DNA from: Deltaproteobacteria bacterium
Lineage (GTDB): Bacteria; Desulfobacterota; Desulfarculia; Adiutricales; Adiutricaceae
Direction: 5' to 3'
Length of the DNA stretch: 19,102 nucleotides
Assembly: GCA_031278795.1 (NCBI GenBank)
Contig: JAITJT010000171.1
Location: forward strand, 1-19,102
The notes under the pieces were generated by a model, which worked only from the letters and a program-made list of their open reading frames with translations, was not told the DNA's origin and searched no databases. Shown one piece after another: positions 4,538 through 19,102 of this stretch. Each line of letters begins with the position of its first letter. Positions within the stretch are counted from its first letter, which is position 1. Position numbers and translations under genes: made by a program.

Positions 4538-4538
4538 C

Positions 4539-5318
4539 CTAGCGACCCCGGACCTCGGATAGTTTGGAGCAGAAGAGTCCGGCCCGGGAGGTGGAGTTCT
4601 CGGAGAGGAGTTCCTCCGGTGGGCCCTGTTCGGTTATCCTTCCGTGTTCCATGAAGAGTATCTCTTTGGTGAGGTGGCTCGCGAATCCCACCTGGTGGGT
4701 GACCATGAGCATGGTCATGCCGCCCTCGAAGAGGGCTTGGATGACGTTTAAGACCTCACCTATGAGCTCGGGATCCAAGGCCGAGGTGGGCTCGTCTAGG
4801 AGCATGACCTTGGGGTCCATGGCCAGGGCCCTGGCGATGGACACCCTCTGCTTTTGGCCTCCGGAGAGTTGGGCCGGGTACAAGTCGGCCTTACCAAAAA
4901 GACCCACCCGGTTGAGCTCGTGGAGAGCCCTCACATAGGCCTCCTCTTTTTTCAAACCCTTCACCCTCCTTAGGGCTATGGCCACGTTGTCCTTGGCGGT
5001 CAAGTGGTCAAAGAGGTTGAATTCTTGGAAGATCATGCCTATCTCCTGCCGGAAGAGGCAGATGTTCTTTTTGCCCATTTCCCTGGCACTATCGCCGTCC
5101 AGGAACACGTCTCCCACATCCGGAGGCACGAGGAAGTGGATGCACTTAAGTAAGGTGCTCTTGCCACCACCCGAGGGGCCAATCAAGACCTTGAGCTCAC
5201 CTTTGTTCAAGGACAATGACACGTCATCTAAGAGTAGCTTCCCACTTAGGGTCTTGGAGATGTTTTTTACCTCTAGATAGGCCATCTGAGGCGGTGATTG
5301 TACGGTATCGGCTTCCAC
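4539..5318 (-). CDS. Polar amino acid ABC transporter ATP-binding protein (GlnQ/HisP family)
   Basis: 259 residues with GTG start, or 248 from ATG 5285. Walker A GPSGGGKS at 47-54, Q-loop Gln 98 in IFQEFNLFDHLT, signature LSGGQKQR at 151-158, Walker B VMLLDEP at 171-177, D-loop SALD, and H-loop His 208 in VTHQ. The EFNLF segment is characteristic of amino acid importers. GTG at 5318 is preferred because GAGG lies five bases upstream and the GTG directly abuts the stop of the preceding permease gene; ATG at 5285 has no evident ribosome binding site. It powers both permeases of the operon. Confidence 0.93.
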   Translation of the reverse strand: MEADTVQSPPQMAYLEVKNISKTLSGKLLLDDVSLSLNKGELKVLIGPSGGGKSTLLKCIHFLVPPDVGDVFLDGDSAREMGKKNICLFRQEIGMIFQEFNLFDHLTAKDNVAIALRRVKGLKKEEAYVRALHELNRVGLFGKADLYPAQLSGGQKQRVSIARALAMDPKVMLLDEPTSALDPELIGEVLNVIQALFEGGMTMLMVTHQVGFASHLTKEILFMEHGRITEQGPPEELLSENSTSRAGLFCSKLSEVRGR

Positions 5319-6020
5319 TTACGCCTCGCTGTGCCCGAATCCGGGTATCTCGGTCTTTTTCTGGAGATATTTGAGGAGGCTAACCCCCAAATAGGTGAGG
5401 ATGAAATAGAGAATCCCCGCCAGGAGATAGAAGGGGATGTGGCGGTAGGTCTGGGCGGCCATGAACCTGGTGCGGGCCATGATCTCAATGGTTCCCAAGG
5501 TGTAGGCAATGGCTGAGTCCTTGAGCAAGATGGAGTACTCATTGGACCAGGCCGGTATGGAGTGCCTGAGGGCCTGGGGGAGGATTATGTGGTAGACCGC
5601 CCCGAAACGGCTAAAGCCCAAGGCCAGGGCCGCCTTGAACTGGCTAGCGGGTAGAGAGATGATAGCCCCCCTAAATATCTGGGACTGGTAGGCCCCGCTG
5701 GTGAGTCCTAGGGCTAAAAGGGAGGCTGAGAATGGGGAAAAGGAGTGGCTCAGCTGGAAGTGCTCCATGAGGAATACCTCAAGTATGTGGTATACCCCGA
5801 AATAGATGAGGAAGAGTAAAACGAGTATGGGAACCCCTCTAAAGAACCATACGTATACCCCCAAGAGCTTTCTCAAGGGCTTGGGGCCGTAGAGCTGAAG
5901 AGAGGCCAGGGGTAGCCCAATGAGGAGCCCTAGGGACATGGCGCCCAGGATGAGCCCCACGGTCCAGCCGGTGCCCCTGATGATGTAGAGGGAAGATTCC
6001 AGAAATTGCTTAAAATCCAT
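5319..6020 (-). CDS. Polar amino acid ABC transporter permease (first permease gene of operon)
   Basis: 233 residues. Helices are near 18-43, 53-80, 97-115, 163-182 and 195-217. The motif VYVWFFRGVPILVLLFLIYF lies around 55-74, and the EAA-type loop AALALGFSRFGAVYHIILPQ at 130-149. Start ATG 6020 lacks an obvious Shine-Dalgarno. Its TAA stop (5319-5321) abuts the GTG of the ATPase gene. The gene follows the binding-protein gene by 180 bases, across a hairpin, so its expression is probably lower than that of the binding protein, as is usual for such operons. Confidence 0.92.
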   Translation of the reverse strand: MDFKQFLESSLYIIRGTGWTVGLILGAMSLGLLIGLPLASLQLYGPKPLRKLLGVYVWFFRGVPILVLLFLIYFGVYHILEVFLMEHFQLSHSFSPFSASLLALGLTSGAYQSQIFRGAIISLPASQFKAALALGFSRFGAVYHIILPQALRHSIPAWSNEYSILLKDSAIAYTLGTIEIMARTRFMAAQTYRHIPFYLLAGILYFILTYLGVSLLKYLQKKTEIPGFGHSEA

Positions 6021-6048
6021 ATCAGTTTAACATTTGGGTAAAAAAGTT

Positions 6049-6088
6049 AAAAAAACTAACCGGGGAGCTCAAGCTGATTGAGCTCCCC
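6049..6088 (-). terminator. Hairpin with T-run between binding-protein and permease genes (attenuator or partial terminator)
   Basis: Perfect 11-bp inverted repeat: GGGGAGCTCAA at 6062-6072 and TTGAGCTCCCC at 6078-6088, with a 5-base loop. On the minus strand it is followed after six bases by seven T (6049-6055). The plus strand has no T-run after the stem, so it acts leftwards. Its place between the periplasmic protein and membrane components fits partial termination or 3'-end protection that raises binding-protein mRNA over the rest. Confidence 0.75.
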
Positions 6089-6199
6089 AGGAAAGTGAAA
6101 ATATATAACGCTTTTTGGTAATTATCTGGCAAATTCGAAAATACTTAGGGTCTTTAGATTTCGTCCCCTAAAGGGAGTGCTTACGTAGCCGAGTACAGG

Positions 6200-6952
6200 T
6201 CAATGGGGTTGGGCGGGGTTGTACTTCTCCAAAAGGGTCTGCCAATAGGGATCGGCCATGAGGAGGGTCAAGCCCTCGTTTAAGGTGGCCAGGAGCTCGG
6301 GGTTCTCCTTGTTCACACCGTAGGCGTATTGCTCCTCCGGGATTCCGGCATCGCCTAGGAGCTTCACCGGCTGGGCCTTCAAGGCCTCATTGGCCGGGGC
6401 GTCGTTCATGACGGCCGCCTGGATGCGGCCGTTGACCACGTCGGCCACGGCCAGCTCGAAGGTGTCATAGAGCTGCACTTTGTAGTTGCGGCCGTCTGTG
6501 TCCTTGGTGGCCTCCATGTTGGCGCCTTCGCTCGTGCCCCTCTGGACGCCAATGGTGTTTCCGCCCTTCAAGACCTCATCCAAGGTGAGCGTGGAGTCCT
6601 TGGTCACGAGAACCACCTGCTTCACCACCCAGTAAGGTATGGAGAAGGAAATCTGCTCGGCGCGCTCCTCGGTGACTGAGAGCCCGGAGGCAATCATGTC
6701 AATCTTTTTGTCCTTTAGGCTGGTGACAATGCTATCCCATTCCATGGCCTGATGCTTGACTGTGAAACCCTGTTTCGTGGCAATCCAGTTGAGGGCCTCC
6801 ACGTCAAAACCCGCGGCTTGGCCGTCCGGGCCAATATAGGCGAAGGGGGCGAAGTTGCCGTCTATGCCGTTTATTAGTTCACCTTCGGCGAAAAGCGGGC
6901 TGGAGATGCTTACGAGTGCGAAAATACAAATTAAGATTAGTCTTTTCAGCAT
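6200..6952 (-). CDS. Polar amino acid ABC transporter periplasmic binding protein (SBP family 3)
   Basis: 250 residues from ATG 6952. An upstream frame opens to 7048, but the ATG at 6952 has GAGG seven bases upstream and begins a textbook signal peptide (MLKRLILICIFALVSISSPL, cleavage about after FA at 22). The mature protein shows family-3 features: FAPFAYIGPDGQAAGFDVE at about 34-52, the IDMIASGLSVTEERAEQISF block at 84-103, IPYWV, IGVQRGTSEG at 134-143 and a NEGL...YWQTLLEKY C-terminus. It captures an amino acid in the periplasm and delivers it to the permeases encoded next. Ligand is not predictable by eye. It is the first gene of the operon and has a long leader with two palindromic repeats. 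Confidence 0.92.
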   Translation of the reverse strand: MLKRLILICIFALVSISSPLFAEGELINGIDGNFAPFAYIGPDGQAAGFDVEALNWIATKQGFTVKHQAMEWDSIVTSLKDKKIDMIASGLSVTEERAEQISFSIPYWVVKQVVLVTKDSTLTLDEVLKGGNTIGVQRGTSEGANMEATKDTDGRNYKVQLYDTFELAVADVVNGRIQAAVMNDAPANEALKAQPVKLLGDAGIPEEQYAYGVNKENPELLATLNEGLTLLMADPYWQTLLEKYNPAQPH

Positions 6953-6971
6953 GTTAAACCTCATTGTGTTC

Positions 6972-6985
6972 TTTTTGGCCAAAAA
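6972..6985. promoter_or_regulatory. Perfect 14-bp palindrome TTTTTGGCCAAAAA in the operon leader (candidate operator or RNA element)
   Basis: The 14-bp sequence is its own reverse complement and lies 20 bases before the binding-protein start. A second copy of its left 11 bases (TTTTTGGCCAA) lies at 7022-7032, exactly 50 bp further upstream, about five helical turns. Because the core is self-complementary, the two copies could also pair in the leader RNA. No regulator can be named. Confidence 0.45.
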
Positions 6986-7021
6986 AGGAGACTCAAGCGA
7001 GAAATGCCGTAAAAATGAGCC

Positions 7022-7032
7022 TTTTTGGCCAA
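7022..7032. promoter_or_regulatory. Second copy of the palindromic leader element (TTTTTGGCCAA)
   Basis: Matches the first 11 bases of the palindrome at 6972-6985 at a 50-bp spacing. See that entry for interpretation. It falls between the candidate promoter at 7078-7104 and the binding-protein start. Confidence 0.4.
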
Positions 7033-7048
7033 GTTTTCCTGGACACAT

Positions 7049-8030
7049 GTTTTGTGACTAGACATCCAGGGCGGAAGTTTATACGCAAGGAATAATATCT
7101 ACAAAAAAATTATCTAAAAACGTATGAAGGGAACCCTTTAAAAAAATTCATAACTAGGGAAGGCTTTGAGAGAACCTTTAAAGAGGGCGTTTTTGAGGGC
7201 GCTTTAGAGGAAAATGTGCTCGCGGGTTTGGAAAGTCAGAATCTAGGTAAGTTTAGTAGTTATTTAGGAAAATTTCAAGAAAATCGCTAAGTTTTTTTAG
7301 CATTTTCATGCCTTGAGGCCCAAGGCGCGGCTTTAGAGGGAAAACGCTCATAATGGGCACTTTTAGGAGAAAAAAAAGGCGCGAAAACATTAGGAAAGAT
7401 AAGAAAAGCAAAGCCGCCTTTCTTAAGAAAAAACCGTTAAAGCGATATAGATATAATTAAAATTTCGACATAAGTAAATGTATATGTCTGTTAAATATAA
7501 ATATTGGTAATTAATAACGATAATTTAGGCTTTTGGCATTGGGTTACTAATATCTAAGGCAATTCTCTAGAAAATGATCTAAGCGATTATACCCTAGATA
7601 CGCTAATAACCCTATATCCTACGTGAAAATGTTTTTTAAAACGTGAAAAATTTGTTGAAATCAGATAAAATTTGTATGTTAAAATTAAAACGAAATTTTA
7701 GAAAATGAAATCAAAATTTATGTAGTGTATATTTACTACAATTGCTAGGCATTATGGTTTTAATAAAAAATATTTTGTGAGAGTTTTTTCATAGTAATCG
7801 TCTAGCCAAGCGTGCCATTGGAAGGACTTGTTAGCTCAATTAGGTATCTTTCAATCTGTGAGGATGGCACTATGATGAAGAGCCAGCTCGTAAAAATAAT
7901 AGATGCTTAGATTTTACCGTTCAGTTTGGAAATGGAATGATAACACATACACAACTTACAACAAGCTTGGAGATAATTTAGAGAAACCATACAAAATGGC
8001 TTTTAGCAAAATTATGCAAAGGTATTAGAG
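7049..8030. other. AT-rich spacer with decayed-looking open frame at 7096-7290
   Basis: Almost 1 kb without a confident gene. The plus strand is open from 7096 to a stop at 7290 and reads as plausible protein (REGFERTFKEGVFEGALEEN), but has no ATG, GTG or TTG near its beginning, so it may be a gene remnant. A segment at about 7323-7350 (GCGGCTTTAGAGGGAAAACG) resembles part of this frame at 7199-7217, suggesting a decayed duplication. From 7440 to 8030 the DNA is very AT-rich. The 7-bp pair GTGCCAT (7812-7818) and ATGGCAC (7864-7870) is the only inverted repeat I noticed there. Confidence 0.45.
7078..7104 (-). promoter_or_regulatory. Candidate promoter of the amino acid ABC operon
   Basis: On the minus strand TTGTAG (7099-7104) is followed by 15 bases and TATAAA (7078-7083). 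The spacer is shorter than the usual 17, so this is tentative. It would give a leader of about 115 bases that includes both palindromic elements. Confidence 0.3.
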
Positions 8031-8402
8031 ATGCTAGAAAAGGTTAAAAATATAGGACTTATTGTAATAGGATTGGTAATAGGCATGTCAATAATGCTTT
8101 ATTATGGAGCACAATACAAACCTAATATAAATTCACGATCACCAGATCGAGAAATATTAAATATAGTAGATCATTTTTTTGACATGTTTTTTAGTATTGT
8201 GCCTAGTAAAGATGCTGCAATTAATATAACTGTGTTTCTTATTGGAGCTCCACTAGGTATTATCACTCTTTTCATGTTAAAGGACCTTTTCTTTGGTGGA
8301 TCAGACGAAGATGATCATTTACTTGCTATACTAATACTAATCGCAATTATAGCCTGTATACCAGCATTTCTGATATTAGATTATCATGTATTATCTAATT
8401 AA
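8031..8402 (+). CDS. Small three-helix membrane protein of unknown function
   Basis: 123 residues, not recognised. Hydrophobic helices are near 8-26, 64-84 and 97-117. Between the first two is a polar stretch with charged residues, and an acidic loop (GGSDEDDH) lies between the second and third. ATG 8031 has AAAGG about nine bases upstream. Base composition is clearly lower in GC than the other genes, with AT-rich codons (ATA Ile, TTA Leu), and it is one of only two plus-strand frames worth listing. This suggests a different origin, such as transfer or a small accessory or immunity-type membrane protein, but nothing shows which. An accidental open frame is unlikely given three well-formed helices. 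Confidence 0.6.
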   Translation: MLEKVKNIGLIVIGLVIGMSIMLYYGAQYKPNINSRSPDREILNIVDHFFDMFFSIVPSKDAAINITVFLIGAPLGIITLFMLKDLFFGGSDEDDHLLAILILIAIIACIPAFLILDYHVLSN

Positions 8403-8720
8403 CATTAATTAAATTGCCATGATTAGTTAAAATATTTTACTTCCAATAAGCACCTTTTAACAAGCATAGGCCAACAAAATTACTAAGCTTACAGCGAAAA
8501 ATATTTTCATTTATATTTTGCTAAAAGATGTAAGTGACCATGATAAAACCTAAGCGTAGAGCCAAAACTTTAAAAAAAGAATAAATCAAAAGAAGTACAA
8601 ATCTGTCTAACATGCTCTAAAATTTAAATTCTTCTAAGTTAGGTGTTACCCTCGCTTTTTTTCATTTTCTCTCAGGCAAAATAAAATAATCTAAATACAA
8701 TGAGGCGAAAAAAGTCCACT
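8403..8720. other. AT-rich intergenic region, nothing recognised
   Basis: This 318-bp stretch lies between the convergent ends of the small membrane protein gene and the first SrfA-like gene. I see no gene, no convincing terminator hairpin and no repeat in it. Confidence 0.6.
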
Positions 8721-10139
8721 CTAGGATCTTCCCAGATATTTAAACTGAGATTTAAATCCCCGCCCCTGGTTTTTCCCAAGGCAGCTGGTGGAGTTGTTGG
8801 GACCGTTGTTGCAGGTGAGGGTGTTTTTCGAGTACTGGGGGCTTCTTTTGCACCTGGCCCCGGTGTCCCTTATTGTTACGGTGTTCCCCTTTCTAGAGGC
8901 GGAGGTGGAAGCTGTGCAGGTGTCCGTTTGTCTTCCTGATTTGTCATACTCTTTGACAGTGGCGGTACCCGATCCCTTGCTGTTGAAACAGTAGACGTAG
9001 ACCACGGGCATTTTTGAGTAGGATGACACTAGGTTGCTCGCGGATTCCCAGCAGCCCTCCAAAAAGGAGAGGTCATTGGGATCGCCCCCTGGCGGAATGG
9101 CGAAGCCTTGGCCCTTTTTGGGGGTGGCCTTGGCGGGCGCCTGGGCCTTGGGCTTGGCCGGGGTTGGGGCCTTGGGGGTGGTTGTTGTCTTGGGCGCTAC
9201 CTTCTCTGGTTCAGGGGGAGGGGGATCCGGCGCTCTCACCGAGTAGAGGGACTGGTTCTCCTCTCCTTGTAGCTGTTCCTCCTCACGGGTCTTGGGAAGT
9301 GGTTCCAGCCTCAACTCTGCCTCCTGGGTAAGGCAGCTGGAAAGGGAGTCCAAATAGTGGGTCTTGAGGATATAGATCTCCTCAACGAGCCCGGCCTCGG
9401 TGCTTTGGTCAATCTTAGGAAGCTTTAGGAAAAAAAGATCCTTGAGTTTAGGCACAAAGAGAAACAAGAGAAGCGTGAACACGAGCAAGGTGAGAAGGGC
9501 CGCCAGAAAGGTTCTTAAGAGGTTCCAGAATGTTGGCTCTTTTTGGGGGTCTTTAGCACTGGAGGCCACTTGTTCTGAAGCGTTCGGATCAGTAAGTATC
9601 TGGTATCCTGGTGGCATTAGGCCACTTGCGAGTATATGAGCCGCGGCATTCTGCTGTGAGTCGGTGAGGGATTTTTCTCCTATGTTTTGGAGACCCCAGC
9701 CGCATATGACGGGAGTGTCCCCCACCACGAATACCTTAATGGATGAAGGGGCTCCGGTGACGCTCTCTGCCACGGACTGCGCGAGCTTCATGAAAATTAG
9801 GCCCACTATCCTCTGCTTTTCGTTCTCAGTGGCAGAGCAGGCGCTCCCCACCTGGAGGAAGTGCTTGGCGCTGAAGGCCAGACTTGCCCTTACGCTATTT
9901 TTGTCAGCTTGGGTGAGACTCTCAAAGGGCGTGGGCTTCCCCTCCACCGAGGTGTACCACTTCACGGAGTTGCTTCCCAGCTTTTCCACCGGCTCCGCCA
10001 GAATCTTGGAAAAACCCTTCCCCAGTAAGGCGTCCAGGTACCCGACCACCTGGCTATACATGCCGATGGTCTGAACCGAGTCTACCTTATCGGGAGGGTC
10101 CGTAAGCTTGTCGCTTGTGTAGAGGAGCTGTGTCGTCAT
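8721..10139 (-). CDS. SrfA-like membrane protein with C-terminal GCW domain (paralogue B)
   Basis: 472 residues from ATG 10139. This start is chosen over GTG 10154 because it aligns (MTTQLL) with the start of the next paralogue (METQIL); neither has a clear ribosome binding site. Order: N-terminal SrfA-like domain (about 20-150) with WYTSVEGKPTPFESL at 61-75 and KVFVVGDTPVICGWGL at 135-150; one transmembrane helix (205-229); post-membrane segment with YILKTHYLDSLSSC (256-269); Pro/Lys linker (304-345); and six-Cys GCW domain (352-472) starting DPNDLSFLEGCW. The six Cys fit an oxidising compartment, so the C-terminus is probably periplasmic. Salmonella srfA belongs to the SsrB-regulated srfABC set, with unclear role. 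Closest in the window to the 10287-11681 protein. Confidence 0.7.
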   Translation of the reverse strand: MTTQLLYTSDKLTDPPDKVDSVQTIGMYSQVVGYLDALLGKGFSKILAEPVEKLGSNSVKWYTSVEGKPTPFESLTQADKNSVRASLAFSAKHFLQVGSACSATENEKQRIVGLIFMKLAQSVAESVTGAPSSIKVFVVGDTPVICGWGLQNIGEKSLTDSQQNAAAHILASGLMPPGYQILTDPNASEQVASSAKDPQKEPTFWNLLRTFLAALLTLLVFTLLLFLFVPKLKDLFFLKLPKIDQSTEAGLVEEIYILKTHYLDSLSSCLTQEAELRLEPLPKTREEEQLQGEENQSLYSVRAPDPPPPEPEKVAPKTTTTPKAPTPAKPKAQAPAKATPKKGQGFAIPPGGDPNDLSFLEGCWESASNLVSSYSKMPVVYVYCFNSKGSGTATVKEYDKSGRQTDTCTASTSASRKGNTVTIRDTGARCKRSPQYSKNTLTCNNGPNNSTSCLGKNQGRGFKSQFKYLGRS

Positions 10140-10249
10140 AGTGGGGCATGACACCCGTAATGGTGATATGTGGTCCTAACATGTTTATATCGTTGTGACG
10201 AAGTTTATTTAAAAAGATACATTAGGATCTTAAATAGCAAAAATACTCG

Positions 10250-10264
10250 AAAAGGATGCCTTTT
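10250..10264 (-). terminator. Weak hairpin downstream of paralogue C
   Basis: AAAAGG (10250-10255), a 3-base loop and CCTTTT (10259-10264) lie just after the 10287-11681 gene. On the minus strand the stem ends in TTTT with a further T-run about six bases on. The stem is only six pairs, so it may not terminate efficiently. Confidence 0.3.
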
Positions 10265-10286
10265 GCCTAATGGGCTTCTTTTAAAT

Positions 10287-11681
10287 TCAGGAACTCCCCA
10301 GGTATTTGAACTGGGCCGTGAACCTGTTGCCTCCGGAGTTACCGCGGCAGTTGGTGGAGTTGTTGGCCCCGTTGGAGCAGGACATGTTGCATTTCACGTA
10401 TCTAGAGCCTCCAGAGCACCTGACCCCGGAGTCGCTTATGCTCACGGAGTTCCCGCGCCTGGATGCGTTGATGGTACCCGTGCAAGTGTCCAGGAGCCTT
10501 CCCGAGTCGTCGAGCTCCTTAACCGAGGCGGTTCCCGTTCCCTTATCGTTGAAGCAGTATCTGTAGGTGAGGGGCATACGCGTGGCCGTGCTGTACAAGG
10601 AGCTGGTCAATTCCCAGCATCCCTCTAAAAAAGAGAGATCATTGGGGTCACCACCCTCAGGTATGGTAAAACCCTTGCCTCTGGCGGGCTCCGCCTTGGC
10701 TGGGCTCTTGGGAGTAGCCTTGGGCTTGGATTGGGGCTTGGCTTGGGGCTTGGGTGGGGCGGGCTCGGGCTCGGGCGCTTTCACCGAGTAGAGGGCCTGG
10801 GCCACCTCCACGTCTTCCTGGGACTCGTTAGCTTCCTTGGGAAGGGCCGCAAGTTCCAGCTGGACCTCCATGGGCGAGCAGCCGTCTAAGGAGTCTAGAT
10901 ACTTTTCTCTTAAAGTGTAGATTCGCTCATTGAGACTGGCAATTTCACCGCGGTCATAGGCCTGTCCCAGGGTCCTATCCTTTCCCGTGATAACTAGGTT
11001 TCTGAGCCCGGGAATAAGAAGTAGGGCAAGTAGGGATAGAACTATGAAGGTCAAGAGGGCGGCCACTGCCGTTTTGAGTATGTACCAGAGGGTCTCCCCG
11101 CCTTCACCACTCTTACTTGCTGGCACAGTGCCTTGGGCTAGAGCACCGGAGAGGGAGGTGTCCGGTGGTAGTATGCCCGTCATAAGCACACTCTTGGCGT
11201 ACTCCTTCTGGGCCTCGGTGGGGAGGCCCAGGCCGCGTCCCTCTAGGCCCCAGCCTGAGAGAACCAGATTCCCACCCACCAGGAAGACCTCTAGGGTAGT
11301 AGGGGAGCCGGAGAGGAAGGCCGCGATGGTCTTGGAGAGCCTCTCCAAGATCTGCCCTAGGATCTCCTGCTGCTTGCCTTCCCCGTAGGATAATCCTAAG
11401 CCCAGGGCCTCCATGTTCTTGGAGATGGCGGCCAGTGCCGCCCTCACGCTGTTTTTGGACTCAGGCCTTAGGTAGGTATACGGTGTAATAGGACCAGACA
11501 GTTGGGTGTGCCACTCCAGGGTGCCGGGTTTTTCCAATGGGTCCGCAAGCAGGTTACCCGTACCTAGGGACCTCTCCAGAAGAAGCGCTAGCTGGGAGCG
11601 CATGCCTATGGAGCGTACCCCGTTTATTTGCTCCGGAGCGCTAGTGGAAAGGGAGCTTAGGCTTAAAATCTGTGTTTCCAT
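10287..11681 (-). CDS. SrfA-like membrane protein with C-terminal GCW domain (paralogue C)
   Basis: 464 residues from ATG 11681. The frame is open further upstream to a TTG at 11879, but that 66-residue extension comes from a low-complexity hexamer repeat and does not match the paralogues. Order: N-terminal domain with WHTQLSGPITPYTYL at 57-71 and EVFLVGGNLVLSGWGL at 131-146; transmembrane helix at about 200-224; post-membrane motif NERIYTLREKYLDSLDGC at 251-268; Pro/Lys linker (301-333); and GCW domain (345-464). It has seven Cys in the last domain, one extra (KCNMSC). It is closest to the 8721-10139 protein, sharing KG.GF.IP.GGDPNDLSFLEGCWE. The role is unknown; a heteromeric envelope assembly with the other paralogues is an inference. 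Confidence 0.72.
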   Translation of the reverse strand: METQILSLSSLSTSAPEQINGVRSIGMRSQLALLLERSLGTGNLLADPLEKPGTLEWHTQLSGPITPYTYLRPESKNSVRAALAAISKNMEALGLGLSYGEGKQQEILGQILERLSKTIAAFLSGSPTTLEVFLVGGNLVLSGWGLEGRGLGLPTEAQKEYAKSVLMTGILPPDTSLSGALAQGTVPASKSGEGGETLWYILKTAVAALLTFIVLSLLALLLIPGLRNLVITGKDRTLGQAYDRGEIASLNERIYTLREKYLDSLDGCSPMEVQLELAALPKEANESQEDVEVAQALYSVKAPEPEPAPPKPQAKPQSKPKATPKSPAKAEPARGKGFTIPEGGDPNDLSFLEGCWELTSSLYSTATRMPLTYRYCFNDKGTGTASVKELDDSGRLLDTCTGTINASRRGNSVSISDSGVRCSGGSRYVKCNMSCSNGANNSTNCRGNSGGNRFTAQFKYLGSS

Positions 11682-11760
11682 GGAAGGCCCCGATGAGCTT
11701 TGGGAATTTATTGAATATGGAACAAAAAAGTTGCTATGACAGATAGCCTTTAGGCCAATA

Positions 11761-11808
11761 AAAGTAAAAGTAAAAGCAAAAACAAAAACAAAAACAAAAG
11801 CAAAAACA
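11761..11808. repeat. Hexanucleotide microsatellite, eight units, upstream of paralogue C
   Basis: Eight consecutive 6-mers of the form AAAA[AG][CT]: two AAAAGT, one AAAAGC, three AAAAAC, one AAAAGC, one AAAAAC. They lie 80-127 bases upstream of the start at 11681 in the likely promoter or leader. The unit length is a multiple of three, so slippage would not shift frame; it could change promoter spacing. Confidence 0.85.
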
Positions 11809-11900
11809 TCAAAGAGTTTTGTTGTTTCAGAATCTCCAAAATCCCTCTTATTTAGGTGATTTACCCTAATTATGTGCAAATTTCTTTGACTTGGGGCCTC

Positions 11901-13319
11901 TTAGTTTTTCCCCAAATAGGTGAACTTATTGTCAAAGGGCTTCTGGCCGCTCCCGGAGTCCCTGCCGCGGATATTACACTGGGTGCGCTCATTAGAGGAC
12001 TTCTGGCAGTTCATCTGATACCTGGTGAAGTTGATTTTTTCCTTGGGGCACTTGGCCCCGTTATCCACAATGACTACCCTATTGGCGCTGCGGGTGGCGC
12101 TGGCGCTGGTGGTGCAGGTATCGGCTTTGTTGCCTTTCTTGTCGTAGAGCTCGGTTTTTAGGGTGCCGCGTCCGTTTTTATCAAAGCAGTAGATGTCATA
12201 GACCGGCCTTTTGGATGTGACCTCGAAAACCCCGGCGTCGGATTTCCAGCAGCCCTCCAGAAAGGAAAGGTCGTTGGGGTCCCCATCCGGGATGTTCATG
12301 GCCCCGCCCACCTTGGGGGTCTCCTTGGGGGTCTCCTTGGGCGTGGGTTTAGGTTCAGGCGTGGGCTCCGGCTTGGGAGGGGCCACCGAGTAAAGCTCAC
12401 TTGGGTCCTCTTCGGGCTCCTCTTGGTAGACCGGAGAGGTCTTTTCCAGAGGAACCTTCAGCTGGGCCTCCTCCACCGGGCAGGCCTCAATCTTTTCCAG
12501 ATAGTCTAGTTTGAAGCTGTAGAGGCGTTCCTCCAAGGTATCAGTTACAGTGGGGTCGTAGAAGGGCGCTCTGGTAAAAAGGAGCCTCAGCTCCGGAAAG
12601 AGGAGAAAGAAGAGGAGCGACAGAAGTAGGAGAGTCAAAAGTGCCGCAAGTAGCACCCTCAAAAGATTCCACAGGCACCCGGACTCGGTGGCTACCGGAA
12701 TAATTGGAACAATTGGAGGGGGCGCGGCCGTGCCGCGGCCCTCCTCAGGCTCTTTGGCCTTCTCCAACACAAGGGCCGGGGGTACCGCGCCGCTTTCCAG
12801 GATATACATGGCGCTGTCGCGGCTACTCTCGGAGAGCTCTCCGTTAAGGTCCTTTACGCTCTTGATGGGCACCAAGCCCCATCCGGCCACCACGGCCTTC
12901 TCTCCCACCAAAAATACCTGGAGCGGGGGGCCGGGATTGGCCACGAAAGAGGCAATCGACAGGGCAATCTTCTCCAGAACCTTTCCAGCCAGCTGCTTCT
13001 GCTGGGATTTGGATTCCTTTAGCCTCTCCCCCTCTTTAGCTATGAGCTGGGCCTTTTGGGCCAGCTGGCTGTTTACCTGATTCTTCTCCTCAAGGTCTAG
13101 ATCCTCATAGGGCTTTACCTTCCCCGTCACCGATGTGTGCCAGTTGATGGTGTTGGACTGGGGCTTCTCCACGGCCTCGGCCAAGATATCCGCGACACCT
13201 GGTTCCGCCGCTTCCAGGCTCTGGGCAATTAGATTGCGCACAAAGAGGATCTGGAGCCCCTCCACGTTGTCGAAGGAGAAATCCAGGCGACTGGTGCTGG
13301 TGAGCTCTTGAAAAGGCAT
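11901..13319 (-). CDS. SrfA-like membrane protein with C-terminal GCW domain (paralogue D)
   Basis: 472 residues from ATG 13319, which has AGGA seven bases upstream; the longer open frame to 13391 has no ribosome binding site. Order: N-terminal domain with WHTSVTGKVKPYEDL at 60-74 and LQVFLVGEKAVVAGWGL at 133-149; transmembrane helix (217-240); post-membrane motif LEERLYSFKLDYLEKIEAC at 262-280; acidic then Pro/Lys/Glu linker (310-338, with PKET repeats); and six-Cys GCW domain (348-472) beginning GDPNDLSFLEGCWKSDAG. In the last domain it is closest to the 14718-16070 protein. The Pro-rich segment 199-207 just before the membrane helix is an oddity of this copy. Function is not known. Confidence 0.74.
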   Translation of the reverse strand: MPFQELTSTSRLDFSFDNVEGLQILFVRNLIAQSLEAAEPGVADILAEAVEKPQSNTINWHTSVTGKVKPYEDLDLEEKNQVNSQLAQKAQLIAKEGERLKESKSQQKQLAGKVLEKIALSIASFVANPGPPLQVFLVGEKAVVAGWGLVPIKSVKDLNGELSESSRDSAMYILESGAVPPALVLEKAKEPEEGRGTAAPPPIVPIIPVATESGCLWNLLRVLLAALLTLLLLSLLFFLLFPELRLLFTRAPFYDPTVTDTLEERLYSFKLDYLEKIEACPVEEAQLKVPLEKTSPVYQEEPEEDPSELYSVAPPKPEPTPEPKPTPKETPKETPKVGGAMNIPDGDPNDLSFLEGCWKSDAGVFEVTSKRPVYDIYCFDKNGRGTLKTELYDKKGNKADTCTTSASATRSANRVVIVDNGAKCPKEKINFTRYQMNCQKSSNERTQCNIRGRDSGSGQKPFDNKFTYLGKN

Positions 13320-13493
13320 AGGGGGATCCTGAAATTTTCCTTTCACCTCACAAGAGAGGGAAGGGCCCAAGGCAAAACGCCTTAGGCTCATTTAGGGCTT
13401 ATTTAGGGGCTCATTTAGTGGCTCTTGCCTCTTCTTTAGAGCTTATCCTCTTAGCTGTGCTTATTCCAACAAAGTCGCTAGAAGTGTTTCAAA

Positions 13494-14525
13494 TTATGGC
13501 TCAGGCGTGGAAACTGGCCCTTCTTGGGGCTTGTCTTCCGCTTTACTTAGGGGCTCATCTTGAGCTGGGGTTTGAGCTGGGCCTTGAGTTCCAGCCTCCG
13601 GCTGGACCTCTGGGCTTTTTGGACTTTCTGGGCTGTTAGGCTCCATCTGGGGTTCTTCTTTTTCCGGGGCCTTGGGCTCGGGTATGCGGATAGCCTTGCG
13701 CGCGCGTGTGTTGTCTTGGGCCATGATAGCTGTCTCCCGCTCGGAAGAGCCACTGAGTAAGTCTTCTTTATTGGGGGCGCTGGGCGCTTTTTCGTTTTCT
13801 GAGATAAGTCCCTTGAGGCCCGGGGTCACCACCAGGAAGATGAGCGCCAGAAGTATAAGTAGCAATAGGGCCCCTAGGCCCACCTTAGCTAATTTTCCAA
13901 ATATTGCCTTGGGGATTTGCTTAGGCTCGCTTACGCTTACTGGGGGAAGATCTTGGTCAACTAATTCGTCGGCTAAGGTGTCTTGGGGATCATGGGGATC
14001 ATGGGGGTCATGGGGGTCATGGACCTCACTTACCAATGAGGGGCACTCCCCCACCGGGGCACCGCACTTTCTAAGATCTAGGCCCCAGTTGGCCATGACC
14101 AGATCGTCTCCTGAGAGGAAAAACTCCAAGGCGCTGGGTTTTCCGTCCACATAGGCCTCCATGGATGAAGAGATGCTTTCCAAGATCAAGGAGGCCTGGC
14201 GCTTGCGCCTGGTCTCAAAGGCCGAGAGGATCTTGGCCTGCTCCTGAAGCTCGTGGGCGAGGCTTTTGATTTGCTCCAGATACTTCTTCTTTTCTGGAAT
14301 CTCGGAAAGAGCGGTAAAGGGCCCTTCCAAATCCGTGTACCAGTCCAGGATGCCTGGGCTGTCGGGCTTTTCCATAGGAGTCGCCAAGAGCTTTGCGAGT
14401 CCTTTGGCCTTTCGCCTGTGGAGGAGCTCGTTGAGGGTGTCGCGGTAGCTAGTTACCTCTACGTCGCCTACAACTTGAGGGGTGAAGTCTGAGCATTTTG
14501 AGCTATGAATGAGGTTGGATATCAC
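13494..14525 (-). CDS. SrfA-like membrane protein lacking the GCW domain (paralogue E)
   Basis: 343 residues from GTG 14525. The N-terminus aligns position for position with the 14718-16070 protein (GDVEV versus GDVQV at 20-24), which supports the GTG although its ribosome binding site is weak. The SrfA-like domain has LDWYTDLEGPF at 60-70 and LEFFLSGDDLVMANWGLDL at 133-151; residues 169-180 are a repeated Asp-Pro-His; a transmembrane helix lies at 214-234. After the membrane there is only a 105-residue tail rich in Pro, Glu, Gln and Ser (280-343). The post-membrane Cys motif and the GCW domain are both missing. The frame ends cleanly and the next 100 bases carry no relic of the domain, so this looks like a true variant architecture, not a recent truncation. 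Confidence 0.72.
   Translation of the reverse strand: MISNLIHSSKCSDFTPQVVGDVEVTSYRDTLNELLHRRKAKGLAKLLATPMEKPDSPGILDWYTDLEGPFTALSEIPEKKKYLEQIKSLAHELQEQAKILSAFETRRKRQASLILESISSSMEAYVDGKPSALEFFLSGDDLVMANWGLDLRKCGAPVGECPSLVSEVHDPHDPHDPHDPQDTLADELVDQDLPPVSVSEPKQIPKAIFGKLAKVGLGALLLLILLALIFLVVTPGLKGLISENEKAPSAPNKEDLLSGSSERETAIMAQDNTRARKAIRIPEPKAPEKEEPQMEPNSPESPKSPEVQPEAGTQGPAQTPAQDEPLSKAEDKPQEGPVSTPEP
13984..14019. repeat. 9-bp tandem repeat encoding Asp-Pro-His
   Basis: Four 9-bp units (TGGGGATCA twice, TGGGGGTCA twice) lie inside the 13494-14525 gene. They encode the repeated Asp-Pro-His stretch between the N-terminal domain and the membrane helix. In-frame unit gain or loss would only change the length of this spacer. 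Confidence 0.85.
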
Positions 14526-14717
14526 TTTGGTTTTTATCTAATTTTAGGTGTTTTTATACGTTTGTATGAAATATAAAGACAGAGGGTTTTAATGAAGATT
14601 CAAGATTCTTGCATTTTTAGATAAATGCTAAGTTCATTATTATAGCACATAGGCAAAATCAGTAGAGAATCTAAAGAAAAAATTGGGAATAGGCAAGTGT
14701 TGAGGCTAAGTAAACCC
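14526..14717. other. AT-rich gap between paralogues F and E
   Basis: 192 bp with no gene. A 6-bp stem (TTGAGG at 14700-14705, CCTCAA at 14716-14721) overlaps the stop of the 14718-16070 gene, with a T-run about 20 bases beyond on the minus strand; it is too weak to call a terminator. Confidence 0.4.
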
Positions 14718-16070
14718 TCAATTGGCCCTTAGGTAGGTGAACTTGGAGTCGTAGTAGGGTTTTCTGGGGTTTTGCCGGGAGTGGGTGTTCTCCACCTTGC
14801 AGCTGGTACGGTTATTTTCCCCGGAGGAGCAGCTGAGGGTGTCCACGCTGAACCTCGAGCCGTTTTTTTGGCACTTGGGGCCGTCGTTTACGATTGTGAC
14901 ACTGTCGCCATTCCTCTTGGCCGTGGCCTTCCCCACGCAGGTATCCAGGTGCTTACCTTTCTTGTCATAGAGCTCGAAGGTGGAAGTGCCCGCGCCCTGG
15001 TCGTCCAGGCAGTAGATGGCGAAGAGGGGGAGCCCGGTGCGGGTGTTGAAGAGGCCCGCGTCTGACTTCCAGCAGCCCTTGAGGAAGGAGAGGTCGTTAG
15101 GGTCCCCTTCGGGGATGTCAAAGGAGTCCCCCTCCTCGGGTTCCCCCTTGGGAACCGAGATAACTCGCTCGCTGTCTTCCACTTCGGCCCCTTGGGCCTC
15201 CAGTTCCTTTTTGGGGAGATCCAGTCTGGCCTGGGGTTCCAGGGTCTCGCAGTTTAAAGTTTTCTCAATAAGCTCCTCTTTGAGGGAGAAGAGCCTATCC
15301 TGGAGGTTCCTCTCTTTCCTGAAGTCTAGCTTTACATCCACGCTCTTAGCGGAAAACATGAGCTTGTAGAGGCCCGGGAAGAGGAGCAGCAAAAGTAAGC
15401 TAAGTATCACAAAGGTGAGGATAGCTGTTAGGAATACCCTTAGGAGCTTCCAGGCACCCTCGTCTTTTGAGTCATCTCTGTCCGCAAGTGCGGCCGGAAT
15501 GATTTGGAGCCTCTGTAAAGACTCCAAAGGCACTGCCCCGGTGTGGAGGAGCTCATTTACTTGTTCCCGGGCGCGCAATTCTTCCGGAGTGAGTGCGGCA
15601 TCCTCTGGTATTAGGGACTTTAGGCCCCAGTTGACCATGGAGACGTGGTCACCTACCAGGAAGATATCCAAGGTGCTGGGGGCCCCCACCAGGTAGGCGC
15701 CCATGGCCTGGGAGAGTCTGGTGAAGACCTGGGCCGCCACCTGCTTTTGCCTCTCCGGAGAGGGGGAGAGCATCTTTCCCAGATCCGAGAAGTTTTTGGC
15801 CTGGACCGCCAGGTGCCTATAGACCTCCACCTTTTCCGGATAGCTTAGGGTGCTTATATGCCTCACCGGCCCTATGAGATCCGTCTGCCAGTCTATGTTT
15901 TCGTTATCTTGGCTCAGCTGGGGGATGGAGAGGAGCTGCGAGGTCCCTGACCCTAAGGCAGAGTCCATGATCTGGCCAATGAAGTTACGACTTCTTATGA
16001 CCTGCACGTCTCCTATGAAGTCGAGCGAGGTGTTGGAAAGCTTGGTGCTTGTGAGGGTTATGAGCGACAT
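14718..16070 (-). CDS. SrfA-like membrane protein with C-terminal GCW domain (paralogue F)
   Basis: 450 residues from ATG 16070, four bases after the stop of the glycosyltransferase gene, with AAGG at the end of that gene as ribosome binding site. The longer frame to TTG 16100 overlaps the upstream gene and is not needed. Order: N-terminal domain with IDWQTDLIGP at 59-68 and LDIFLVGDHVSMVNWGL at 134-150; transmembrane helix (207-231); post-membrane motif LQDRLFSLKEELIEKTLNC at 256-274; a short acidic linker (290-320) with much less Pro than in the other full-length copies; and six-Cys GCW domain (322-450) beginning DPNDLSFLKGCWKSDAG. Translational coupling to a glycosyltransferase suggests a shared envelope-related role, by inference only. 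Confidence 0.74.
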   Translation of the reverse strand: MSLITLTSTKLSNTSLDFIGDVQVIRSRNFIGQIMDSALGSGTSQLLSIPQLSQDNENIDWQTDLIGPVRHISTLSYPEKVEVYRHLAVQAKNFSDLGKMLSPSPERQKQVAAQVFTRLSQAMGAYLVGAPSTLDIFLVGDHVSMVNWGLKSLIPEDAALTPEELRAREQVNELLHTGAVPLESLQRLQIIPAALADRDDSKDEGAWKLLRVFLTAILTFVILSLLLLLLFPGLYKLMFSAKSVDVKLDFRKERNLQDRLFSLKEELIEKTLNCETLEPQARLDLPKKELEAQGAEVEDSERVISVPKGEPEEGDSFDIPEGDPNDLSFLKGCWKSDAGLFNTRTGLPLFAIYCLDDQGAGTSTFELYDKKGKHLDTCVGKATAKRNGDSVTIVNDGPKCQKNGSRFSVDTLSCSSGENNRTSCKVENTHSRQNPRKPYYDSKFTYLRAN

Positions 16071-16074
16071 GGCC

Positions 16075-17010
16075 TTAAATTCTCTGGGCCAGGAAACCAA
16101 TGTAGAGGGCCAGCTGCTGAACGAAGGATCTTCTGTAGATATTGTATTTTTTTATCTGTCTGTGGAGGTTCCAGAGGCTGGTGCGCTTCCTAAGGCTCAC
16201 CAAGGTATCCAAGGTCTCCTTGTTGATGGAGGTGAGATAGTCTTCCAGGGCGTAGAGGGCCTGGAAGTTGCGGTCGTTCATCTGCCTAAAGTTTCTCTGC
16301 CAGGCCTTTTTAACCCGGCCGGCGAAGGCCAGGAGGCCGTTATTGGAGCCTATTATGTTTTGGGAGTGCTGGCGGTACCTGATGGTGGGAACCGGGTCGT
16401 AGATGACTAGGCCACCAGCCCCTGTTACTATCTGGTAGGCCCACCAGTCGTGGCTGATGGGTTTCAAAGGATAGCCCTTCACTATCAGGTCCCTTGCCTT
16501 ATTGTTAAAGACCATGGTGTTGGCGCCGGCGATGGATTGGATTATGGCGTTGGAGAAACTTGGTGGGGGGCTGGTGCGCAGGGGTGATAGAGTTGTATCC
16601 ACTCCGTATTGGTTCATGAGCTGGGTTCTTCCGCAGTAGAGGAGGGCCTCTTCCTCCCCAATAGGGCTAATTAGCTCTATGATTCTGGAAAGCTTATGGG
16701 GAAGCCAGATGTCGTCTTGGTCAGACCAGGCGTAATAGTCGCTCTCACCATTATCTTCTATTGTCAGATGCATGAAGTTGCGGCAGAAGCCCTCTCTGGG
16801 GCCATCTATTATTTTGAGCTTATCCTCTCCCCAATCATGCTGGTATTTTTTAAGGATTTCAATGGTATTGTCCTTGGATCCGTCGTCAGATGCCGTGAGA
16901 GTCCAATTATCATAGCTTTGCTCATGGAAGGAATTCAATTGATCCGGGAGATAGCTTTCTCCGTTGTAGGTGCCCATGAGGATGGAGACCGATTTGTCGG
17001 ACTGGGTCAT
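16075..17010 (-). CDS. Family 2 glycosyltransferase (rhamnosyltransferase-like)
   Basis: 311 residues, usual length for single-domain GT2 enzymes. GT-A fold signature: VSILMGTYNGESYLPDQL at 8-25, ASDDGS at 40-45, SDQDDIW at 96-102 (the DXD metal/nucleotide-sugar site), HDWW at 187-190 (region of the catalytic base) and IRYRQHSQNIIGS at 210-222, all typical of O-antigen or rhamnan rhamnosyl/glucosyl transferases. No membrane helix; the protein would act at the inner face of the membrane, moving a sugar from a nucleotide donor to a lipid-linked, polysaccharide or protein acceptor. ATG 17010 has GAGAG five bases upstream. It stands alone among SrfA-like genes, with no other sugar genes in the window, and is coupled to the next gene at 16070. 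Confidence 0.9.
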   Translation of the reverse strand: MTQSDKSVSILMGTYNGESYLPDQLNSFHEQSYDNWTLTASDDGSKDNTIEILKKYQHDWGEDKLKIIDGPREGFCRNFMHLTIEDNGESDYYAWSDQDDIWLPHKLSRIIELISPIGEEEALLYCGRTQLMNQYGVDTTLSPLRTSPPPSFSNAIIQSIAGANTMVFNNKARDLIVKGYPLKPISHDWWAYQIVTGAGGLVIYDPVPTIRYRQHSQNIIGSNNGLLAFAGRVKKAWQRNFRQMNDRNFQALYALEDYLTSINKETLDTLVSLRKRTSLWNLHRQIKKYNIYRRSFVQQLALYIGFLAQRI

Positions 17011-17083
17011 GGTGGCTCTCTTCTGGTTCCTCTTACCTAAAGACTTTAAGATCCAAAGACATCATAATGCAAAAAAACAAAAC

Positions 17084-17097
17084 TTATCTTTTGATAA
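17084..17097. promoter_or_regulatory. Inverted repeat upstream of the glycosyltransferase gene
   Basis: TTATC and GATAA flank four T, 74-87 bases before the glycosyltransferase start in a short AT-rich promoter region. It could be an operator or nothing at all. Confidence 0.2.
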
Positions 17098-17158
17098 ATT
17101 AGGTGCTGATAGACATAGAACTAATATGTTTTTCGCTAATAAGCTCTGTTCTCATACG

Positions 17159-17212
17159 CCTTGGCTAATAAGCTTTTGCTATAAGCCTTGGCTAATAAGC
17201 CTTGGCTATAAG
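17159..17212. repeat. 27-bp tandem repeat, two copies, each itself a near-duplicate
   Basis: Two 27-bp units (17159-17185 and 17186-17212) differ at two positions. Each is made of a 14-mer CCTTGGCTAATAAG and a related 13-mer of the CCTTGGCTATAAG type, so four similar half-units stand in a row. They lie between the end of the 17268-18311 gene and the glycosyltransferase start. GGCTAATAAGCC can form a 4-bp stem, too weak for a terminator. Confidence 0.85.
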
Positions 17213-17267
17213 TCTTTCTAGATATAATATACAGCTAGTATGTTAAGCGCTCATAAAGTTATAAAGC

Positions 17268-18311
17268 TTAATCATTATTGTTCATGGCGGCCTTACGGCT
17301 GCGGCTGCGCTCGTTCTTGGTGGTATCTGACCTTTGGGTCTTGGTATCCACGTCCTTTTGGTCAAGGGTGCCGTTTATCTCCTTGGGGGACGCGGGGCTT
17401 TGGGCATCGCGCGCCAAAAACGCGCCTTGGGGCACCCGAGGGGCGGAGAACTGGCCCTTGGCCTCAAAGAGGTTTTGCTTGGGGGTCTTTCTCGTGGTGT
17501 AGTTCTCGGCGGTCTCCACCCCCATTTTCACGTAGGCTAGCATGGCCGCGTCCGGCACGCTGGACTTGTTGACCTTGGAGCTAATCTTAATGGGTACCTG
17601 AGTCGTATCTTCACTTTTAGGCCGTATGAGCTGGGCTGCCACCAAGAGCGCGACTATAGCTATCATGCCTATGGCGATGGTTCTTCCCAGGCCTTTATAC
17701 TTGGGGCGCCCGGTGATACCTTGCGTATTCGTCGTCTCGCTTAACTCTAGCCTGGCGTTGGTGTTAAGCCCTAGGCTGGAGGGGAGGGTGTCCATCTCTT
17801 CTAGGATGCTCATGGAGAACTGATCGGTTCCTGGGAGCCAATATTTGGGCTCCATCTTACCGCCCCAGCCGGCAATGACCACATGGCCGTCAATGCGAAA
17901 GGCAGCTTGTCCTTGAGGCACTCCGGCGGCTATGTCACTAATCCCTAAGGATATGCTAGCCAGCATGTTTCCAGCCACCCTCTTGTCGTTATCCTGCTCT
18001 AGGGAATAGTTAAGCGATATGGCGCCTAGGTGCTGCGCCCAGCCGCGGAGCTCCTTGCGGAACGAGTCCTTGTCATAACCCAACATGTCCTCGAAATTCT
18101 GGGGATTCCCCGCAAGCTCAGAGGTCCAGCGCACCTGTTCGCTATCATTGGGCGCAAGTGGCCTAGAGAGTAGGTACTGGGCGTCCCTCCCAAGGTTTAG
18201 GACAAGCATATCCCTTAGTTTATCGTAATAGGACGCGAAGTCCCTCCCTTCCACCTTCTGGGGAGTCCATACCTTGAGGTTGGTTGTGTGGAGCATCTGG
18301 AGCAGGGGCAT
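17268..18311 (-). CDS. Divergent SrfA-like membrane protein lacking the GCW domain (paralogue G)
   Basis: 347 residues from ATG 18311, with GAGG about eight bases upstream; ATG 18296 has none. The N-terminal domain matches the paralogues at VRWTSELAGNPQNFEDML (60-77) and AAFRIDGHVVIAGWGGK (136-152), though more distant than the others. One transmembrane helix lies at 209-228. The 118-residue tail has no post-membrane Cys motif, no Pro-rich linker and no GCW domain, and contains no Cys at all; it is polar and ends with a basic RSRSRK stretch and an Asn-rich end. It is therefore a second 'N-half only' member. It lies between the partial GCW gene (18599-19102) and the glycosyltransferase. Role unknown; a possible scaffold partner of full-length members. 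Confidence 0.65.
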   Translation of the reverse strand: MPLLQMLHTTNLKVWTPQKVEGRDFASYYDKLRDMLVLNLGRDAQYLLSRPLAPNDSEQVRWTSELAGNPQNFEDMLGYDKDSFRKELRGWAQHLGAISLNYSLEQDNDKRVAGNMLASISLGISDIAAGVPQGQAAFRIDGHVVIAGWGGKMEPKYWLPGTDQFSMSILEEMDTLPSSLGLNTNARLELSETTNTQGITGRPKYKGLGRTIAIGMIAIVALLVAAQLIRPKSEDTTQVPIKISSKVNKSSVPDAAMLAYVKMGVETAENYTTRKTPKQNLFEAKGQFSAPRVPQGAFLARDAQSPASPKEINGTLDQKDVDTKTQRSDTTKNERSRSRKAAMNNND

Positions 18312-18598
18312 TATCTAATCCTCATGCTAAGTGGAGGCCTCTGGAATCTCTTAATAAATAAGAAAAAATTTACAAAACACGGTGCCGGGCCTTACTTAGC
18401 TTCCACTTTACAAAATACATCTGCCAAAAGGCTTAAAAGCCTTATGAAAAAAGACGAAAAGAAAAAAATGCTAAAGCGTAAAAAGCAAAAAATGAAAATT
18501 TTATGAAATAAAAAGAGCTCAAATGTAAATTAAGGCAAAGAAAAAAAATGTTAGCTGTATGGGGCGTGGTAGAGAGACGGAATGTGAGCTTAAAGAGA
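18312..18598. other. AT-rich gap with small inverted repeat
   Basis: 287 bp between the partial GCW gene and paralogue G. It contains a 7-bp perfect inverted repeat AAGGCTT/AAGCCTT at 18428-18443 with a 2-base loop. On the minus strand the DNA between it and the gene end at 18599 is very T-rich. A terminator is possible but the loop is too short to be convincing. Confidence 0.4.
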
Positions 18599-19102
18599 TC
18601 ACTCTCTCTTGGTGAACCTGGTGGAGAAGTCCCTATCCACACCGCTCTGACCCAAGGAGCACTCGGCCTCTTTTTCACCTGGCTTACAGGTCACCTTGGA
18701 GGGGACGAAGTTGCGCATGCCGTCCTTGCACACGGCGGCGGTCTGGCTTTCCACCACCATGGCCCCGTCCTTGAGCTGGGCCTTGGCCCCGCCCCGGCAG
18801 GTGTCTATGATCTGGCCGTTCTGGTCCTTGACGTTGGCGTAGACATTGGCGTTCCCCTTCTCGTCAAAGCAGTAGTAGTACTCCATGTCCTCACCTGTTC
18901 GCTTGCTGGTGAAGCCGGTGCTGGAGTTCCAGCAACCCCTCAGCCAGGACATGTTCTCCGGGTTATCCCCGGACTTGGGATCCGGCATGTTGAGGGGGTC
19001 ACCGTCGTTGTTGTTCTCGGAATCCGGCGTGGGCTGAGGCATGCCCGTGGGCTCCTCGCTCTTGGGTGGCTCAGGTGGGGTCTCGGCTTTGGGCTCCTCA
19101 GG
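18599..19102 (-). CDS. C-terminal part of a SrfA-like GCW-domain protein (paralogue H, cut by window edge)
   Basis: The frame remains open to the window edge upstream of the first Met (19042), so the real start lies outside; 167 residues are visible. The first 45 or so are a Pro/Glu/Lys-rich linker, followed by an Asp/Asn-rich segment and the GCW domain (WLRGCWNS, EYYYCFDEKG, GQIIDTCRG, and three more Cys). All six Cys of the family are present and the ending (FSTRFTKRE) takes the place of FKYLG. The domain is closest to that of the distant 748-1623 protein. I infer the missing part has a membrane helix and perhaps a SrfA-like N-terminal domain, as in the full-length paralogues. Confidence 0.75.
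   Translation of the reverse strand, partial: PEEPKAETPPEPPKSEEPTGMPQPTPDSENNNDGDPLNMPDPKSGDNPENMSWLRGCWNSSTGFTSKRTGEDMEYYYCFDEKGNANVYANVKDQNGQIIDTCRGGAKAQLKDGAMVVESQTAAVCKDGMRNFVPSKVTCKPGEKEAECSLGQSGVDRDFSTRFTKRE

Follow-up and report, generated by a model that had tools for sequence, protein, structure and literature searches.

The window analysed here is a complete contig of 19,102 nucleotides from a Deltaproteobacteria bacterium (JAITJT010000171.1, ending at position 19102). It carries an array of eight related SrfA-like genes on the minus strand, seven of which (g1 to g7) lie at positions 8721 to 19102 and one (g0) at 748 to 1623. We posit, with a probability of about 0.42, that the encoded proteins are single-pass inner-membrane adaptors or receptors with periplasmic barrels that share one SrfB-SrfC pair. 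This reading is based on homology, synteny, copy numbers, mosaicism between copies and the absence of a dN/dS signal (dN/dS, ratio of nonsynonymous to synonymous substitution rates), all of which were observed.

In the window, open reading frames (ORFs) were listed, searched with NCBIfam and Pfam profiles and compared all-against-all by BLASTP. All eight array ORFs match the NCBIfam SrfA family (NF040486, SrfA_fam), with E-values of 5.6e-32, 3.2e-30, 5e-30, 4.5e-8, 1.8e-23, 2.5e-5 and 2.4e-19 for g1 to g7, respectively, and 3.6e-5 for g0. The best score in the window is 111.7 bits and the curated cut-off of the family is 150 bits; single-copy relatives in genomes G006 and G007 reach 332.7 and 336.6 bits. 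Since all eight ORFs stay under the cut-off, we regard them as a divergent SrfA branch, whose relationship to the family is supported at the profile level. No Pfam family scored above its cut-off for any of the eight, a Pfam scan of 47 N-domains returned scattered single matches only, and none of the searches linked the ORFs to another described family. Among the copies, BLASTP connects g1 with g2 at 40-42% identity (E ~1e-97 to 8e-101), g4 with g5 at 34% (E 1e-18) and g6 with g1 at 25% (E 2e-15). A preliminary description of this DNA had proposed a tandem row of six adjacent SrfA-like genes with shared domains, or seven with the edge fragment. Relatedness, SrfA similarity and tandem expansion are borne out, and the array also occurs in metagenome-assembled genomes (MAGs) of related Deltaproteobacteria. 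The count rises to eight, as g0 had been missed, and the row is not strictly adjacent, as a GT2-family glycosyltransferase (16075 to 17010, minus strand; Pfam E 4.5e-18) stands between g5 and g6. The two motifs given for the N-domain, W-[YHQ]-T and F-[LV]-[VS]-G...W-G, are present in the translations of five of the six N-domains, and g6 retains only the W and WG.

Like SrfA of the SrfABC operons of enterobacteria and gut Desulfovibrio, the full members consist of an N-domain, a membrane helix, a Pro-rich linker and a C-terminal GCW domain in this order. The order is complete in four genes, namely g1 (8721 to 10139; class epsilon), g2 (10287 to 11681; class epsilon, closest paralogue g1), g3 (11901 to 13319; class delta) and g5 (14718 to 16070; class gamma), the latter two with same-slot orthologues in the genomes Im510_bin21 (G001) and Pcl387_bin47 (G002). 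Two members, g4 (13494 to 14525; acidic Pro-rich tail) and the divergent g6 (17268 to 18311), have the N-domain and helix without the C-domain, and two are C-only: g7 (18599 to 19102; class beta), which is truncated by the contig end, and g0, in which a helix near the N-terminus and a Pro-rich stretch precede the SrfA-type GCW domain. The C-domain is thus found in g1, g2, g3, g5, g7 and g0, and the N-domain with one predicted helix in g1 to g6, in agreement with the single-pass architecture suggested earlier. Relatives of g0 in other genomes are likewise C-only. The members were assigned from profile and BLASTP matches, with the tree as additional evidence for g0, g1, g2, g3, g5 and g7 and the structure model for g1. 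The ORFs of g2, g3 and g5 extend to 11879, 13391 and 16100; the likely starts inside the ORFs of g1, g2, g3 and g5 (10139, 11681, 13319 and 16070) were chosen where the conserved part of the alignment begins and with regard to the database forms P0001 and P0002, no clear ribosome-binding site being established. Unlike the SrfA family, the array scores below the cut-off, has many copies, includes N-only, C-only and C-C forms and is partly split from srfB and srfC.

A pattern scan of genome contigs returned 56 loci, the best of them in the Deltaproteobacteria MAGs G001, G002, G003 (Pcl387_bin105) and G004 (Gx485_bin53), followed by Desulfovibrionaceae and a few alphaproteobacteria. Copy numbers are given as profile matches, of which a single gene can yield two, and the relatives' genomes are MAGs split into contigs. 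Eight genomes held 11, 16, 11, 19, 3, 1, 2 and 4 SrfA matches; each of them had one SrfB and one full SrfC, with a short extra SrfC match in G003. Within the family of G001, the family of the closest relative, SrfA was matched in 20 of 37 genomes with 1-22 matches each (at least 8 in ten genomes). SrfB was likewise matched in 20 of the 37, with a single match in 19 and two partial matches on two contigs in G013; the two proteins occur together in 19 genomes, G031 having SrfA only and G033 SrfB only. With up to 22 SrfA matches against a single SrfB and a single SrfC, a SrfB-SrfC pair shared by the copies is the most likely arrangement. That srfA is normally a single gene, as had been assumed, holds only roughly: the family of G006 has 1-5 matches in 31 of its 149 genomes, and six genomes with loci labelled Alphaproteobacteria, Rhizobium, Asaia or Enhydrobacter carry 2-7 (enterobacteria stand outside these counts). 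In view of the latter, modest SrfA multiplication is not confined to one group.

SrfB and SrfC are present in the relatives that carry the array, where SrfA adjoins SrfB (PF07520) and SrfC (PF10139) as in the SrfABC operon. In G001, whose array is syntenic, both are found some 8 kb past the last SrfA of the same contig. The G001 order on the first strand is three SrfA, glycosyltransferase, SrfA, protease, TagQ-like protein, SrfA and WG-repeat protein, followed on the opposite strand by SrfB, SrfC, proteins of 182 and 650 residues, VWA, ABC, FtsX and FGE. The window is collinear with G001 from the left-hand ABC genes (six transporter proteins, 57-82% identity) to the glycosyltransferase, which occupies the equal slot in G001 (55%) and G002 (60%); g6 is not present in the corresponding gap of G001. 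By this synteny the protease, the TagQ-like protein and an alpha-class SrfA would be expected just past the right end of the window. Elsewhere, G010 shows SrfA (N-domain), SrfB and SrfC in a row; G027 has WG, SrfA, TagQ, protease, SrfA, SrfB, SrfC, a 409-residue protein, VWA, TagT, TagS, TagR, protease and SrfA; and G035 has six SrfA following WG and, on a different contig, another five. The G006 order is a Gly-zipper (TagQ-like) lipoprotein, a membrane trypsin-like protease, SrfA, SrfB, SrfC, a 360-residue protein, VWA, an ABC ATPase and further genes. Neighbourhood genes were picked by a greedy longest-ORF rule; in G006 and G007 this rule chose spurious antisense ORFs, and the SrfA and SrfB positions given for these two genomes come from profile and domain matches instead.

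The surroundings resemble a ten-gene neighbourhood (tagQ, Hap-like, srfABC, LigA, ppkA and tagR/S/T) reported in 2013 from host-associated Deltaproteobacteria (PMC3608642). Shared with it are the Gly-zipper lipoprotein, trypsin-like protease, VWA and ABC-FtsX-FGE genes that flank srfABC in G006 and G001; unlike it, the loci studied here also contain a gene for a WG-repeat protein, another conserved SrfA that lies upstream of tagQ, and the expanded array including a glycosyltransferase. A description of multi-copy SrfA was not found in the literature surveyed. For the proposed envelope system as such, "undescribed" is too strong given the neighbourhood published in 2013. In Pseudomonas aeruginosa, TagQRST-PpkA senses outer-membrane damage (PMC11881912). 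A Pfam search of the 667-residue PpkA-like protein of G006, which has a 661-residue homologue in G001, gave VWA and weak SH3 matches and no kinase domain, and a 650-residue G001 protein had no Pfam match. The motif D-[IVM]-GGGT is present in SrfB and GPSQxGKS in SrfC, each in eight of eight proteins; we take these to be an actin/Hsp70-type phosphate motif and a P-loop, respectively.

Two trees were calculated, one of C-domains (56 rows, careful mode) and one of N-domains (86 rows, quick mode, with support from the Shimodaira-Hasegawa-like approximate likelihood ratio test only). In the C-domain tree, g5 groups with G001 57906 and G002 8402 (100/97), g3 with G001 56175 and G002 6755 (100/99), and g0 with proteins of G001 and G003 that are likewise C-only (100/100). 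The pair g1 and g2 falls into a set of 11 rows with two from G001 and seven from G002 (99/88), and g7 joins G001 60547 (92/90) and, more weakly, G002 10902 (88/61). The N-domain tree resolves a class alpha, which adjoins the WG gene, with one row from each of eight genomes (97), and a class beta, which adjoins the protease, with one row from each of six (93). Window genes g1 to g5 lie in a set of 18 rows that otherwise holds only G001 and G002 (99), g6 is a long branch with no secure place, and many other sets are single-genome expansions (G002 with seven, G024 and G035 with three each, and G004). Some SrfA slots thus occur once per genome beside tagQ-like and protease genes, and the remaining copies have expanded within lineages. 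As alpha and beta are one per genome and other sets lineage-specific, we distinguish a conserved SrfA core from a growing accessory set.

Closely similar copies point to N/C mosaics, with variation accompanying recombination. Such mosaicism was found in the relatives' genomes, the window copies being too old for this comparison. Among within-genome pairs with at least 75% identity in either domain, the N-domain is the more similar in 10 of 12; for pairs with at least 75% in the N-domain it leads in 10 of 10, a figure biased by selecting on N. On contig C12 of G035, gene 4298 is 0.83-0.94 identical to gene 5877 up to about residue 198 and 0.46 identical at the end, and 0.87-0.97 identical to gene 2661 around residues 223-273. 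For G002 720/1740, the synonymous divergence dS is 0.27, 0.32 and 1.05 for N-domain, linker and C-domain. As dS jumps from the N-domain and linker to the C-domain in several pairs, recombination rather than selection is indicated. The diversifying selection proposed in the preliminary description finds no support in dN/dS, which is 0.13-0.64 in 38 of 39 cells (13 similar within-genome pairs by three segments), the remaining cell being undefined through saturated dS. A wider set, in which many dS values are high or saturated, holds one cell above 1 (beta class, C-domain of G002/G004, 0.65 against 0.57).

Two folds were modelled from single proteins, g1 among them. The C-terminal domain is predicted to form an eight-stranded avidin/calycin-like barrel with six cysteines, at about 10% identity to avidin/calycin structures and a best Foldseek E-value of 0.014; unlike those barrels, it has six cysteines and a membrane tether. 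The structure search gave no significant fold match for the N-domain. It returned mostly kinase folds, with scores under the tool's stated noise level, and we therefore treat a kinase-like fold as a lead and not as a result. An N-domain profile gave 17 weak matches to solved structures (best E 0.061), which fell on coiled coils or helical segments, and sequence searches linked neither G006 SrfA (E up to 1) nor G006 SrfC and G003 SrfB (E up to 0.1) to solved structures. In full members the N-domain of about 150 residues is taken as cytoplasmic and the barrel as periplasmic, both by prediction, and the spacer between membrane helix and barrel is mostly Pro-rich. An N-terminal domain, a membrane helix and an extracytoplasmic domain are likewise found in EssB/YukC and TraF, pseudokinase hubs of type VII and Gram-positive type IV secretion systems (PMC13037476). 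Two SrfA-like proteins, of G003 (gene 10305, L081:10305-12074) and G004 (gene 31439, L085:11440-13281), carry two tandem C-domains, which suggests barrel duplication inside one protein.

Further observations concern the remainder of the window and of the relatives' loci. Adjoining g0 is an ABC-2 type transporter pair (1724-3234), whose homologues keep their order near the G001 array. It is followed by an amino-acid ABC transporter set of two permeases, ATPase and solute-binding protein (3818-7048), syntenic with G001 at 71-82% identity. The stretch at 7049-8720 is AT-rich (GC 0.31 vs 0.54 in the array) and includes one short ORF on the plus strand (8031-8402), whose hydrophobic product has no Pfam match. 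The WG-repeat protein (L074:7270-8904) is the neighbour of the conserved alpha-class SrfA on seven examined contigs (G001, G003, G004, G023, G024, G027 and G035) and may be an additional component of the system. G003 has, between srfC and srfB, a gene for a 782-residue protein (L081:4591-6939) with a short SrfC-family match (E 5e-8), possibly a second divergent partner; G030 and G035 have similar-sized genes at this slot (685 and 929 residues). Downstream of srfC, G003 encodes a C-domain protein (L081:281-1639) whose N-terminal part resembles, by eye only, that of the LigA-like 360-residue protein after srfC of G006. PADLOC at E 0.01 gave no match for g1, g6, SrfB (G003), SrfC (G006) and the VWA protein; a single weak match of the glycosyltransferase to REase_II (E 0.001) was taken as chance. 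Viral contigs gave 18 pattern matches with no SrfA relative among them, so that this collection offers no sign of a phage origin. The rickettsial SrfA-G (PMC11258249) is an unrelated use of the name. The style of the MAG sample codes may hint at termites as the source; PMC9137090 describes termite-derived Desulfobacterota MAGs, to which none of the codes was matched.

We propose that the cytoplasmic N-domain of each SrfA would dock on the shared SrfB and SrfC, with their actin/Hsp70-type and P-loop motifs, and that the copies may act at the membrane as adaptors or receptors, either interchangeably or side by side. The system would sit in the TagQ, trypsin-like protease, VWA and TagTSR neighbourhood that is associated with outer-membrane damage sensing in Pseudomonas. 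Alpha and beta slots would form the conserved core, and the other copies could multiply and exchange C-terminal barrels, which may widen the range of periplasmic binding or anchoring. Several points weigh against this reading. The window contig ends without srfB, srfC or a tag gene. Fold and topology are predicted, the charge bias is weak, and SrfB/SrfC docking, receptor role and ligand binding are inferred. In 207 within-genome pairs with both domains, the N-domain is more similar than the C-domain in 94, so that there is no general rule, and older orthologues of classes gamma and delta show the reverse of a constant N-domain (N 24-45%, C 52-63%). The mosaics come from tandem repeats on MAG contigs, which could have been misassembled. 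In the literature surveyed, cytotoxicity is the only function for which an SrfABC operon has been tested (PMC6950479), and the present reading leaves it unexplained.

The preliminary description named a multi-subunit envelope assembly as one of two possibilities, and the paralogues may indeed be non-equivalent subunits of one complex, such as a ring, basket or fibre, with fixed slots. We consider this rather unlikely. The alpha, beta, gamma and delta slots are kept in order, as non-equivalent parts would be, N-only and C-only members exist, and there is one SrfB and SrfC for many SrfA; the claim is thus partly supported, and a fixed hetero-complex would be compatible with the conserved slots. 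A fixed subunit list nevertheless ill suits 1-22 matches within one family and extra copies that are mostly lineage-specific (G002 with seven, G004, G035). Those same half-genes and the recombination between copies would also result from amplification by unequal crossing over, in which drift and weak selection on dosage would maintain the copies while some decay. The array diverges fast compared with the 57-82% identity of the six flanking transporter proteins, as such a process would predict, but dN/dS values of 0.13-0.64 in 38 of 39 cells indicate constraint, conserved slots persist across genomes, and cysteines and motifs are retained; we regard it as the least probable of the readings considered.

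An offensive or host-directed role appears improbable; on this view SrfABC would be secreted as a cytotoxic complex of three parts, with the SrfA copies as variants of a delivered or targeting component. In Xenorhabdus, SrfA, SrfB and SrfC co-precipitate and are reported to be cytotoxic to insect and mammalian cells (PMC6950479), and in the 2013 data srfB and srfC were restricted to host-associated Deltaproteobacteria (PMC3608642). The tested activity, however, derived from E. coli lysates (PMC6950479), and the window SrfA proteins have a central membrane helix and no release signal. An association of SrfA with the type VI secretion system, for which TssC was used as marker, is not general: in the family of G006, TssC occurs in 9 of 31 genomes with SrfA and 29 of 118 lacking it (Fisher p 0.65); for the family of G001 the corresponding counts are 18 of 20 and 10 of 17 (p 0.05, weak), and TssC was not found in the array genome G003.

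SrfABC function was called unclear in 2013 (PMC3608642) and is not settled by the literature surveyed, in which no experiments on these array proteins were found. The adaptor reading could be extended to a recombining receptor repertoire, with a shared SrfB-SrfC nucleoside triphosphatase pair, degenerate kinase-like cytoplasmic domains and swapped avidin/calycin-like barrel cassettes. We consider this unlikely; if true, it would represent a novel type of surveillance of the cell envelope in gut bacteria. The contrast of many SrfA with a single SrfB and SrfC suggests that SrfA is the variable, exposed part and SrfB and SrfC the common engine. It predicts a defined topology, several SrfA N-domains on one SrfB and different ligands for different barrels. 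The multiplied SrfA of these uncultured bacteria may thus offer, as a natural contrast, a way into the function of this three-part system.

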